DNA of 36,073 nt, from the IMG/VR virus record IMGVR_UViG_3300044800_000006, positions 1 through 36,073 of that record. One strand, given 5' to 3'. The notes beneath the pieces are model-generated. The model did no database searches. It saw only the letters and a program-made list of their open reading frames with translations, and was not told the origin of the DNA. This document shows, piece by piece, positions 1 through 35,878 of this stretch. This stretch comes from a virus. Both the position numbers and the translations under genes were made by a program. Numbering within the stretch: position 1 is the stretch's first letter; each line of letters starts with the position of its first letter.

Positions 1-203
1 ACCGCACCGCCAACCGCATCGCCAACCGCACCGTCAACCGCACCGCGAACCGCACCGCGAACCGCACCGTCAACCGCATCGCCAACCGCATCGCCAACCG
101 CATCGTCAACCGCACCGCGAACCGCATCGCCAACCGCACCGCCAACCGCATCGTCAACCGCACCGTCAACCGCACCGCGAACCGCATCGCGAACCGCACC
201 GCC
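1..203. repeat. 12-bp tandem repeat array (17 units, runs to window edge)
   Basis: Seventeen head-to-tail units of aaccgcaYcgNN (Y = c or t; last two bases cc, tc or cg), the first lacking one base at the window edge. The array is coding on the minus strand: each unit gives a tetrapeptide [G/D/R]-[G/D]-A-V. Variation falls only at the two bases-groups that change the first two residues; the GCG GTT (A-V) part is invariant. It is much more GC-rich than its surroundings. The array probably continues beyond position 1. Confidence 0.95.
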
Positions 204-440
204 ATTTTTTCTTAAAATCCCCTCCGCTATTGCCGATGCCAGTCCACCAACTAATGGCGATGATACCCTGACAATGTTTTTAGGATAAACTACCCCTGCC
301 TTCTCGTAACAAATAGGCATATATTTATCGAATGTTTCCCAATCTGTTTCTCCAGTTCTCAAACCGATCTCAATCCATTTATCTGCATAACCTTTCATCG
401 CATTTTTTTGTTTTGATGTCAGTTCAGTTATCTTTTCCAT
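1..440 (-). CDS. DUF6745-like protein with AV tetrapeptide repeats, 3' partial
   Basis: The ATG at 438-440 overlaps the upstream stop as TAATG, and the frame stays open to the window edge, giving about 146 visible residues. The first 80 residues have a helical start, a WIEIGL segment, a YEKAGVVYP segment and an SSPL-type segment. I recall this layout from DUF6745 proteins, in which a short N-terminal domain is followed by degenerate xDAV or xDQV repeats. The repeats then occupy residues 80 onward. In cellular genomes, as I remember, such proteins sit next to a small RHGD...HEEH protein, which is the upstream gene here too. Function is unknown. The family assignment is from memory, not a search. 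Confidence 0.75.
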   Translation of the reverse strand, partial: MEKITELTSKQKNAMKGYADKWIEIGLRTGETDWETFDKYMPICYEKAGVVYPKNIVRVSSPLVGGLASAIAEGILRKNGGAVRDAVRGAVDGAVDDAVGGAVGDAVRGAVDDAVGDAVGDAVDGAVRGAVRGAVDGAVGDAVGGA

Positions 441-28624: not shown

Positions 28625-30802
28625 CTATTCCAAAAGGTCAATATTAAAGCGTTTTCTAATTGGCCGTCTGCCAAACCCTGTCACAGGATCGCCACCGGTG
28701 TAGCCGATGATGGGCTGATGCTTCTTAATCTGGCTGTTTAAATAATTAAACATAAAGTAACGTAATGAATCGCAGTTAGATACTAAAAGACCATTAGCGA
28801 AGTAACAGCCATTTTGAGTGCTTAGGTTATAAACTATTCTTTTTCGTAGCGGTTGCGGGTTTAACTTGCTTGATGCCCCTTCTTCTACGGAGGGCATACA
28901 TTTTGCAATTAAGTCCGCAAAACTTCGATCGTGTTGGGAACGGGGTTTTATATCCAATCCCGCAACTTTGACAGTGTTTAGAATACATTTTCCTATTATC
29001 CCAGCATTTTCTACCATTTCTGATATGCCATTTTCTACCTTCATCTGATTTATGCCATATTTTTGCTGATTCTCTTGCTTTTTCAAGTCCTGATTGCCAG
29101 TTTTTAGTTGGATGATTCTTTTTATGTTGCTTATTAGTAAGACATTTAAGATTCTTAATATCATTGTTAAGAGTGTCCCCGTCAATGTGATGTATCTCAT
29201 TGCCTTTTGGAATATCCCCGTTGATACTTTCCCAAATTGCTCTGTGGAGTAATTTTGGTTTGCCTCCGAACTTCTTGTAAGCAGACGACATAAAATACCG
29301 CCTAAGTTCCACTTTAGATGAGTTTGGGTATCTCCTATATGGTATTCCTTCAAAGTATATGGTTTCGTGCATAGATATATTGTATCAAAGTATCGCAGAG
29401 TGTCAATAGGCACAAAACCCTTCTGTGTCAGTATTTTATGATTAGGCGTAACGATAGTCCCATAAAAATCTACCACTTCTTTAACGCCAGTTTGAGATAT
29501 ATTATTGATTTTACTCCAACCAAAAGGTGTCCAAACTTTATATGTTTTGTCTAACTTTTCAATATCTACTTGACCCTTATCAGTAAGTATTTTAGTCCCA
29601 GCACCAAAGCAATAGTTATCATTTTCTTTTTTAGGCACTTGCTTGAACTTGCCATCCGTCCCCCTAACTTCTATCCAAACGTACTGTTCTATCTGCTCAA
29701 TAGCTGTTTTAAGATGCTTACTTATAGTCCACTTTGGCTTCTTGTTTATAGGATCGAACATCATATACTCGTGAACTTTAGCTATTCCAAGTTCAACGTC
29801 TTTGTTTGTTTCTAATATAGGCCAAGAAAGGCGTTTAAGCTCTTCAATCAAGTCAGGCCTGGCGGGGTCGGGGAAGATACCTTGAATCACAAGTCCGTTA
29901 GTTTGTGCTTTCATCAACTCGTCTATCTCGTCAATGCCTTTTTGTGATACATCAAAGCCATCAAAGGTATAAACTCCGTTAGAAGTCACCTCGTGCCACA
30001 GTACAGCCGTTTCGTGGCCAACAGCAAAGCCAAAGTCTATTGAACCAAAGATAGTCCCCATAGGTTCGCGCCTATCAACGATATGTATATCCCTTGAAAA
30101 GGTTGGCCAGATAGCACCGGAGCGTTTCATAAACTCGGCCATATACTCTTGTTCAAATCTTTCAGAACTCATTGTAGTTTTAGCTTCGTCTATTTCGGAG
30201 GATTTGATATAAGGATTGTCATATGAGGTAAAGTGAAATGACTTATAATTCTTGTTAGTTTGTTCTTGATTATAAAGATCATAGAACCAGTTATATCCAT
30301 CGGGTGTGGAGATAAACACCACCCAACCTTCTCTATCAGCTAACATTGGTCTAATGACATCCCAAGCGTAGGGGGCGATAAAAGCACTCTCATCCATTAT
30401 CAAGCCATCTAAACCTACTCCTCTTAAACTGTCGGGGTTGTCAGAACCTTTGAGAGCTATTCTTGAGCCGTTGATAAGCTCAACTGATAGTTCTGTTTCG
30501 TTTGTTTTAGATACTAACTCTCTTGGAAGGTATTTAGTTAAAAGCCGCCAAGATATTTCTTTGATCTGGCGATACGTTGGGCCAACGATCCAATAATCAC
30601 CTTGCTTATTTACAGCGTCTTGAATTAACTTGTTGACAGCCCAGACACTCTTTCCAAACCTTCTCCCACATCTAACTACTTTATAGCGATGTGTATCATC
30701 GTGTAAGAGCTTTTGTTTTGGATGCGGCACATACCCGTTGTTAGCGAGTATTTGTTGCAACCTTATCTCTTGTTCACAGGCTAAATTTGTATCCATAATC
30801 AA
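28625..30802 (-). CDS. terL: Terminase large subunit, intein-containing
   Basis: 725 residues if started at TTG 30802 (right after the upstream stop); ATG at 30796 is an alternative two codons later. ATPase: Walker A GRRFGKS at about 46-52, Walker B LIMDES about 134-139, coupling ISTPDG about 164-169. Nuclease: SIDFGFA with D256, DPARPD near 312, and a third motif split by the intein: extein ...NDNY before residue 398 and CDSLRYFMF after 676, which rejoin as NDNYCDSLRY, corresponding to D-x-x-x-D-ALRY of terminases. Unspliced, the nuclease is broken; splicing is expected to be essential. A short remaining C-terminus carries GGDP...RRPIRKRF. Confidence 0.92.
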   Translation of the reverse strand: MIMDTNLACEQEIRLQQILANNGYVPHPKQKLLHDDTHRYKVVRCGRRFGKSVWAVNKLIQDAVNKQGDYWIVGPTYRQIKEISWRLLTKYLPRELVSKTNETELSVELINGSRIALKGSDNPDSLRGVGLDGLIMDESAFIAPYAWDVIRPMLADREGWVVFISTPDGYNWFYDLYNQEQTNKNYKSFHFTSYDNPYIKSSEIDEAKTTMSSERFEQEYMAEFMKRSGAIWPTFSRDIHIVDRREPMGTIFGSIDFGFAVGHETAVLWHEVTSNGVYTFDGFDVSQKGIDEIDELMKAQTNGLVIQGIFPDPARPDLIEELKRLSWPILETNKDVELGIAKVHEYMMFDPINKKPKWTISKHLKTAIEQIEQYVWIEVRGTDGKFKQVPKKENDNYCFGAGTKILTDKGQVDIEKLDKTYKVWTPFGWSKINNISQTGVKEVVDFYGTIVTPNHKILTQKGFVPIDTLRYFDTIYLCTKPYTLKEYHIGDTQTHLKWNLGGILCRLLTRSSEANQNYSTEQFGKVSTGIFQKAMRYITLTGTLLTMILRILNVLLISNIKRIIQLKTGNQDLKKQENQQKYGINQMKVENGISEMVENAGIIGKCILNTVKVAGLDIKPRSQHDRSFADLIAKCMPSVEEGASSKLNPQPLRKRIVYNLSTQNGCYFANGLLVSNCDSLRYFMFNYLNSQIKKHQPIIGYTGGDPVTGFGRRPIRKRFNIDLLE
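28775..29611 (-). other. Intein in TerL (mini-intein splicing domains, 279 aa)
   Basis: Splice junctions by inspection: N-terminal Cys398 begins CFGAGTKIL (block A); block B includes GTIVTPNHKILTQKGF. C-terminal block F is RIVYNLSTQNGCYFANG and block G is LLVSN, with Asn676 and a +1 Cys. Block B has the TxxH pattern. The usual penultimate His before the terminal Asn is replaced (Ser-Asn), a change tolerated in some inteins. Splicing domains occupy about 398-480 and 650-676; between lies a stretch that reads in-frame as a low-quality linker but is a gene in another frame. Confidence 0.9.
28827..29372 (-). CDS. HNH homing endonuclease encoded inside the intein in another frame
   Basis: 181 residues; ATG 29370-29372, -1 frame to TerL. 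HNH core at about 43-85: LHRAIWESINGDIPKG, then EIHHIDGDTLNNDIKNLKCL and NKQHKKNH, the H-N-H/N layout of homing endonucleases. The C-terminal part has CQSCG and FCGLNCK (zinc ribbon) and a basic tail. The stop (28827) falls at the boundary of intein block F. An in-frame TGA at 29385-29387 prevents upstream extension. No SD, so translation may be by internal re-initiation, a -1 frameshift between 29384 and 29372, or a separate transcript. It would cut intein-less terL alleles. Confidence 0.85.
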   Translation of the reverse strand: MHETIYFEGIPYRRYPNSSKVELRRYFMSSAYKKFGGKPKLLHRAIWESINGDIPKGNEIHHIDGDTLNNDIKNLKCLTNKQHKKNHPTKNWQSGLEKARESAKIWHKSDEGRKWHIRNGRKCWDNRKMYSKHCQSCGIGYKTPFPTRSKFCGLNCKMYALRRRRGIKQVKPATATKKNSL

Positions 30803-34130: not shown

Positions 34131-34266
34131 TTGAGACAGATAGTTTTCCACAATGCGTAATCAGTTGCGAGCTGTGCTATGGCGGGCTTTCAACCTTCGT
34201 TATCTTGGCTTCAAGTTGCGGTCTTGAAGCAGCAGTTGGTTTCCTACAACGAGGTATCTGCCTCAA
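34131..34266 (-). ncRNA. Structured leader RNA closed by a 12-bp stem
   Basis: On the minus transcript TTGAGGCAGATA (34255-34266) pairs with TATCTGTCTCAA (34131-34142): 12 bp with one G-U that would be an A-C mismatch on the plus strand, which sets the strand. Inside, TCGTT/AACGA (34248-34252 with 34197-34201) encloses the 8-bp hairpin GCTTCAAG/CTTGAAGC (34208-34215, 34223-34230; seven-base loop), and 34143-34196 is left for another arm. The closing stem starts just after the predicted start site (about 34272). No known RNA family is recognised. It may be a leader, a regulatory RNA or a separate small RNA. Confidence 0.65.
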
Positions 34267-35021: not shown

Positions 35022-35051
35022 GCCTCCTTCTTCTACTCTTATTGCACCAGC

Positions 35052-35108
35052 ATTCCTCACTAGCAAAGAGGGGACTTTTGGGAGTCGAGACCAAATCTAG
35101 CGAGGAAT
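35052..35108 (-). other. 12-bp stem in the leader of the GC-rich genes
   Basis: ATTCCTCGCTAG (35097-35108) and CTAGTGAGGAAT (35052-35063) pair over 12 bp on the minus transcript with a single G-U, a C-A mismatch on the plus strand. An inner GACT...AGTC pair lies in the loop. It ends about 30 nt before the ATG at 35021. Confidence 0.6.
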
Positions 35109-35230
35109 ATTAGTACAATAAAAAAAGAGACCGGAATAAATTCGCAGGTGCGATTTTATACTCGATCTATTTGTCTCGCGGACTATATTTAACTTAACAC
35201 TTTAAAAAGTTATGTCAAGTTTTCAAAAAG

Positions 35231-35332: not shown

Positions 35333-35394
35333 TTAACCTCCTTTTAATATCTGTCTCCTGTGGTGCGGTGTTTTCTGCTGTTAATGTGCTATAA

Positions 35395-35512
35395 GTTGGA
35401 GGCAAGACTCAAACCTTGCGTGTGCTAATTTTTTGGGTGTTCTATGGATTCAACCCTCGGATTAGCCAGAGGTTTTCCAGACCCCCGCTATCGTATTCTC
35501 AGCCACTCCAAC
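35395..35512 (-). tRNA. tRNA-Ser(GGA)-like, class II with oversized variable arm
   Basis: Acceptor GTTGGAG (35512-35506) pairs with CTCCAAC (35401-35395), seven perfect pairs. D-stem GCT/AGC (3 bp). Anticodon stem GGGGT/ACCTC with loop CTGGAAA gives anticodon GGA (35478-35476), serine. T-stem GCAAG/CTTGC (5 bp). The variable region is 49 nt (35420-35468) against about 16-20 in ordinary tRNA-Ser, and forms GCTAAT/ATTAGC with an inner GGGT/ACCC. Odd points: D-loop lacks GG, T-loop is eight bases with T for C56, discriminator is T, CCA is not encoded. Real tRNA or decayed relative. Confidence 0.65.
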
Positions 35513-35566
35513 TTGTAATACACTAAATCACTTTGATAATACTCTAATATTATAAATTGCAACACT

Positions 35567-35878
35567 CTATTTTATTTTGTTTATATTTTGTTTTATTTGG
35601 CTTACGGATTGGTTGAAGCCGTGAGGGTATCTTTGCATATCAGTAGAAAACTTTTTATCTATTACTTTGAATCTTGGCAAAACACTCAAACACTCCTCTA
35701 TCGTCTCCCGTCTTGTTCTTTTGAGGGCATCGAGCAACATTTCAAGAGGTTTTGGTCGCATACCACAGACAAAACAAGCATCGTAACCTGACATCTCCAG
35801 GAGTTTCTTCAGGGATTTAATATACCGTTCCGTCTCTTTGATAAGTTCGGCTTCTTCTAAACTATCTTTGGGTTTCAT
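35567..35878 (-). CDS. Hypothetical protein, 103 aa
   Basis: ATG 35876-35878 overlaps the previous stop (ATGA). Helical, charged, with one CFVCGMRPKPLE segment (CxxC) near 35-46. The C-terminus has many Asn/Gln/Ser. Upstream of the tRNA-like gene in the right-end block. Not recognised. Confidence 0.7.
   Translation of the reverse strand: MKPKDSLEEAELIKETERYIKSLKKLLEMSGYDACFVCGMRPKPLEMLLDALKRTRRETIEECLSVLPRFKVIDKKFSTDMQRYPHGFNQSVSQIKQNINKIK

Follow-up and report, generated by a model that had tools for sequence, protein, structure and literature searches.

A remodelled tRNA-Ser(GGA)-like gene with two T-arm motifs in a phage genome

Near the right end of a phage genome lies a 118-nt gene that, judged by its sequence, is a real but remodelled descendant of a tRNA-Ser(GGA) gene. 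The window, by which we mean the whole stretch of DNA analysed, is an entire virus record of 36,073 bases. Its genes, almost all of which are on the minus strand, include those for a phage terminase, portal, major head protein, endolysin and glycosyltransferase. The tRNA-like gene lies on the same strand and runs from 35512 to 35395, an orientation that the initial annotation of this DNA had not given. Within this one gene, an internal T-arm relic seems to be combined with a second T arm, which closes the cloverleaf. The parts of the gene are as follows.

35513..35514, minus strand: AA at positions -1 and -2, which pairs with TT at 35393-35394 and extends the acceptor helix to 9 bp, as read from sequence and fold
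35395..35512, minus strand: tRNA-Ser(GGA)-like gene, whole cloverleaf, 118 nt, CCA not encoded
35506..35512, minus strand: 5' strand of the acceptor stem, GTTGGAG, 7/7 pairs with 35395-35401
35487..35503, minus strand: D arm, stem GCT/AGC and loop GAGAATACGAT without GG; A14, G15 and A21 kept
35469..35485, minus strand: anticodon arm, stem GGGGT/ACCTC, loop CTGGAAA and anticodon GGA; 5/5 pairs, one of them G-U
35420..35468, minus strand: 49-nt variable region with its own fold, TGGCTAAT/ATTAGC(A)CA, a stem of 8 bp in which one A is bulged
35446..35460, minus strand: relic of a tRNA-Ser T arm, CCGAGGGTTGAATCC, inside the variable region and aligned to the canonical T arm by a tRNA-Ser model
35402..35419, minus strand: second, pairing T arm, stem GCAAG/CTTGC and 8-nt loop GTTTGAGT; 5/5 Watson-Crick pairs
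35395..35401, minus strand: 3' strand of the acceptor stem, CTCCAAC, 7/7 Watson-Crick with the 5' strand
35394, minus strand: discriminator position, T, versus the G usual in tRNA-Ser (canonical alignment rows end in G)

The initial annotation had described acceptor, anticodon and T stems that pair fully, and each of them does (7/7, 5/5 with one G-U, and 5/5); the D stem contributes 3/3 further pairs. The anticodon loop CTGGAAA is identical to the loop of E. coli serX, which agrees with the earlier match to bacterial tRNA-Ser GGA. The irregularities reported at the same time were also found, namely a D loop without GG, a T loop of eight bases and a T as the base that follows the acceptor. The acceptor helix continues for two pairs into the flanks (AAGTTGGAG/CTCCAACTT), which places the "discriminator" T (U73) opposite A(-1). 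The second T arm, GCAAG-GTTTGAGT-CTTGC, adjoins the acceptor, and its loop keeps T54, T55, G57 and A58, with C56 replaced by T. By sequence, the tertiary partners U8-A14, G15-C48 and T54-A58 are kept, as are C11-G24, U33 and A37, which are relevant to class II tRNAs. Among the universal tertiary residues, U8, A14, T54, T55 and A58 are present and G18, G19 and C56 are absent. Because the D-loop GG was lost along with C56, the normal elbow pairs cannot form, as the annotation had concluded. On paper, an A19-U56 pair could possibly stand in for G19-C56 (numbering A14 G15 A16 A17 U18 A19).

The variable region had been described as an oversize variable arm. Its length of 49 nt was confirmed and is far above the canonical class II range, but the T arm of an ordinary tRNA-Ser aligns inside it. 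This alignment indicates that the region is better read as part of a remodelled 3' half than as the product of simple lengthening. When folded in isolation, the region forms the 8-bp stem and a distal GGGT/ACCC hairpin, and only one base, C48, separates it from the T stem, which is the modelled geometry of a class II variable arm beside the anticodon stem. A 6-bp stem at the ends of the region occurred in 0.2% of shuffled 49-mers (P 0.002).

We compared the cloverleaf with chance expectation. It comprises four arms, with a 7-bp acceptor and 5-bp anticodon and T stems, and with 19/20 Watson-Crick pairs it is the only cloverleaf in the window that exceeds 15/20. After dinucleotide shuffling, one window in 200 attained 19/20 Watson-Crick pairs, with 1/5 landmark residues compared with 5/5 in the tRNA-like gene, which suggests that the stems by themselves are modest evidence. 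The combination of acceptor and T arm was discarded as evidence in its own right, since shuffles yielded equally many. Across a broader set of tRNA landmarks the gene has 14/16, missing only the D-loop GG and C56, and the chance cloverleaves (n=395 from 500 shuffled windows) had at most 12/16. The cloverleaf descriptor used for the window gave no match on either strand of 91 other loci (1.09 Mb). The cloverleaf has a predicted energy of -29.8 kcal/mol versus -32.3 kcal/mol for a competing alternative fold, and its stability is not exceptional on the minus strand (z -1.44). The value of -3.08 on the opposite strand calls for caution because the stems are mirrored on both strands; the tRNA residues can be read on the minus strand only. 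If the stems had drifted like the landmarks (3/16 lost), the chance that all 20 pairs survive would be ~0.001, which suggests constraint on the fold, although this estimate is weak and biased, as it was the pairing that first drew attention to the element.

Serine identity was assessed with a covariance model built from seven ordinary tRNA-Ser genes, including E. coli serX and T4 tRNA-Ser. Run over the whole window with filters off, the model gave one clear match at 35509-35435 on the minus strand (21.0 bits, E 0.0021, with E-values from this model being rough), and the next best match scored 9.0 bits. The same model scored true non-Ser T4 tRNAs at 18-48 bits, a range that includes the 21.0-bit match, and the T4 small RNA RNAC at 17.5 bits. 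The match skips the T arm that closes the cloverleaf and uses the internal CCGAGGGTTGAATCC instead. Together with the landmarks, it upholds the label tRNA-Ser(GGA)-like, and derivation from a class II tRNA-Ser with anticodon GGA is well supported at the level of sequence.

General tRNA models and tools did not recover the gene. The Rfam tRNA model (RF00005) gave no match in the whole window or in a 171-base stretch at E up to 10, Rfam tRNA-Sec gave no match, and ARAGORN with default settings did not call the gene. A relaxed ARAGORN search, proposed earlier as a check, did detect something at the locus, but only as forms with a 35-nt anticodon-loop intron or of the mitochondrial, armless type; both were rejected, as they disregard the intact variable and T stems. 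Removal of a segment to rebuild the first T arm also failed by inspection, as the 5' strand GAGGG has no CCCTC partner before CTCCAAC.

Comparison with related phages, another check that had been proposed, yielded no homologue, and odd tRNA-like genes appeared only in more distant contigs. No homologue of the tRNA-like gene was found by blastn against phage and plasmid collections or by searching IMG/VR for exact patterns of its 5' part and T arm. With a broader Ser(GGA) pattern there were 19 matches, all of which were read as coding DNA and none of which ARAGORN calls a tRNA, and searches with neighbouring proteins yielded nothing of use. The closest terminase relatives, L003 (91%) and L004 (75%), contain no match to the tRNA-Ser model, with L003 covering only 1.2 kb upstream of the terminase. 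Among the comparison loci, which were fetched by terminase similarity, three contain odd tRNA-like genes that ARAGORN missed. L043 encodes an oversize Ser-like tRNA of 109 nt at 634-742 (24.3 bits), which contains TGGAAA and an enlarged variable region and adjoins an ordinary tRNA-Leu. L008 features a cluster at 2092-2556, in which one element has an enlarged anticodon hairpin loop (41.3 bits, Rfam), a second scores 23.8 bits and two more tRNA-like repeats were seen by eye; ARAGORN calls none of them. L006 carries at 2436-2483 a minimal, mascRNA-like element composed of an acceptor, a small hairpin and a canonical T arm (19.6 bits, below the gathering score). These genes belong to separate, more distant phage contigs, and any homology among them or to the element in the window is putative at most.

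The reading that we place first, if tentatively, is that the gene is a divergent phage tRNA-Ser(GGA) that still decodes and whose 3' half was rebuilt; we rank it ahead of an RNA like T4 RNAC and RNAD and of a decaying pseudogene. It starts from the observed tRNA-Ser ancestry, complete cloverleaf, intact anticodon loop and T-arm relic, and the order of events, transcription, processing, charging and decoding would be as follows. The phage gene would descend from a serine tRNA of class II whose anticodon was GGA. Its 3' half would have been rebuilt, either by an insertion or through recombination of tRNA genes similar to each other. The first T arm would thereby have been left without its 3' partner and would now form the tip of the long variable arm, and another T arm, beside the acceptor, would have come to close the cloverleaf. 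Transcription would take place within the row of minus-strand genes, between 35567 and 35332. Host RNase P and 3' nucleases would trim the transcript, the host enzyme would add CCA, and host SerRS would charge it with serine through the long variable arm. The charged RNA, a divergent serine tRNA, would then decode UCC and UCU.

The exact anticodon loop and the retained class II features favour a decoding tRNA. Like ordinary bacterial and phage tRNA-Ser (E. coli serX GGA, T4 tRNA-Ser), the gene has the acceptor, D and anticodon architecture, the D-arm start TGGCTGAG, the CTGGAAA loop, a long variable arm and a T-arm motif. It differs from them in its size (118 nt, compared with 85-90 nt), its 49-nt variable region with a T-arm relic, its 8-nt T loop, its lack of the D-loop GG and of C56, and its U73, in place of G73, paired with A(-1). 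Decoding is opposed by the lost elbow contacts, the 8-nt T loop, U73 and the bulged base in the variable arm, and the misses by ARAGORN and the Rfam tRNA model also count against it. The A(-1)-U73 pair may interfere with the action of RNase P and SerRS. In E. coli, an engineered allo-tRNA was no longer charged by SerRS when the stem of its variable arm had a bulge (PMC7590224), and the best fold of the variable region here likewise carries a bulged base in its stem. Allo-tRNAs and tRNA-Sec share with the gene a long variable arm, a SerRS-type architecture and an acceptor helix that can be written as more than 7 bp. However, these RNAs have a 12- or 13-bp acceptor branch (9/3 in allo-tRNA, 8/5 in tRNA-Sec), whereas the gene is 7/5, or 9/5 with the extension. 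The diagnostic pairing of a 12-13 bp branch, arranged as 8/5, 9/4 or 9/3, with a long D stem is absent from the gene, whose D stem is only 3-4 bp and whose anticodon is GGA.

Somewhat unlikely, and second to the decoding tRNA, is a stable tRNA-derived RNA that no longer decodes, in which the cloverleaf would serve processing, stability or protein binding and the tip of the long arm would be the working part; the same may hold for RNAC and RNAD of phage T4. For such an RNA, losing both halves of the elbow, changing the discriminator and rebuilding the 3' half would matter less. RNAC and RNAD (species 1 and 2 RNA; 139 and 119 nt), which originate in the tRNA region of T4 and have been assigned no role (PMC3014915), are phage small RNAs of similar size and show, by analogy, that phages can retain tRNA-related RNAs without known role. 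RNAC places an ordinary, canonical T arm (CCGGGTTCGAATCCCGG) on an odd body and still reaches its 17.5 bits, and the odd tRNA-like genes in L006, L008 and L043 are also in line with this explanation. However, RNAC lacks ordinary D and anticodon arms, whereas the tRNA-like gene has the whole cloverleaf, with sequence homology between the two putative at most. Furthermore, every base of the anticodon loop is retained, and a non-decoding RNA would not require this.

We rate slightly lower, as doubtful, a functionless gene, which would be either a decaying tRNA-Ser gene or a chimaera from recombination between neighbouring tRNA genes. The two T-arm motifs in one gene, one of them without a partner, the indels, the lost universal bases and the lack of a homologue in IMG/VR patterns or in phage or plasmid collections are consistent with this outcome. 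In contrast, 20/20 cloverleaf pairs still form, with an acceptor that reaches as far as 9 bp and an unaltered anticodon loop; for decay at the rate of the loops such survival would be rare (~0.001, a figure biased by the mode of discovery). A chimaera would require two closely similar acceptor stems.

The initial annotation had also raised resistance to a host anticodon nuclease. Phage tRNAs that evade such nucleases have a mutated anticodon loop as their reported signature, and according to the same study Ser(GGA) is avoided by mycobacteriophages since VapC cleaves within this anticodon (PMC10264068). The tRNA-like gene is phage-encoded as they are, but its anticodon loop is canonical and equal to that of E. 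coli serX, and evasion through an anticodon-loop mutation is thus not supported by the sequence. A related proposal, which we consider improbable, is that a tRNA-Ser(GGA) with this canonical, nuclease-vulnerable anticodon is still charged and decoding, and that its rebuilt body, not its anticodon loop, endows it with some special property, for example the binding of a protein or the ability to escape a defence that cuts Ser-tRNAs. As modelled, that body would combine a replacement elbow pair such as A19-U56, the second T arm and a variable arm tipped by a 31-nt hairpin.

Partial tRNA genes are a frequent remnant of phage integration (PMC9897764), but a tRNA fragment carried as an attachment site is very improbable here, as both halves and all arms are present, which is more than a 3' end, and no integrase was found among the 24 distinct proteins scanned with PHROGs, Pfam or NCBIfam, which represent a subset of the ORFs. 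Chance pairing in non-coding DNA, the stem quality of which was matched in 1/200 shuffled windows, is contradicted by the landmarks, anticodon loop and tRNA-Ser model match combined and is hardly credible.

The gene is flanked by a 103-aa ORF, with its stop at 35567, and a 33-aa reading frame (35332-35231) that has a good ribosome-binding site, and neither a dedicated promoter nor a dedicated terminator was recognised. TCC and TCT account for 31% of serine codons, with TCA the commonest, which indicates no strong need for the gene from codon usage. Other elements of the window were also observed. A long, near-perfect hairpin (~27 bp) at 35036-35120, minus strand, lies directly upstream of a small gene's ribosome-binding site (z -5.1 to -9.0), and a multi-branched non-coding element at 34134-34265, minus strand, is closed by a 12-bp helix, TTGAGGCAGATA/TATCTGTCTCAA (z -2.66). 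Between 34000 and 35100, G+C is raised (49% versus ~40%) and the small genes have no relatives in IMG/VR. The terminase large subunit (28625-30802, minus strand) probably contains an intein: it has a weak Hint-domain match at aa 398-427, below the cut-off, and its homology to L005 skips from aa 397 to 678, with no intein model found there by NCBIfam. Positions 1-439, minus strand, cover the 5' portion of a gene with a long repeat array, inside which the contig ends, and this gene has a repeat-rich homologue at L006:2999-4372; positions 247-386, 79% identical to L006, were rejected as an RNA candidate because they turned out to be coding.

That standard tools overlook such genes, in the window as in L008 and L043, suggests that phage tRNA counts are incomplete. 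If the RNA does not decode, it would be a companion to the unexplained T4 RNAC and RNAD. Should it be charged, it would represent a natural parallel to engineered tRNAs with variable-arm hairpins (PMC7590224) and would widen the limits of a working tRNA to include one without the D-loop GG, without C56 and with a 49-nt variable region.
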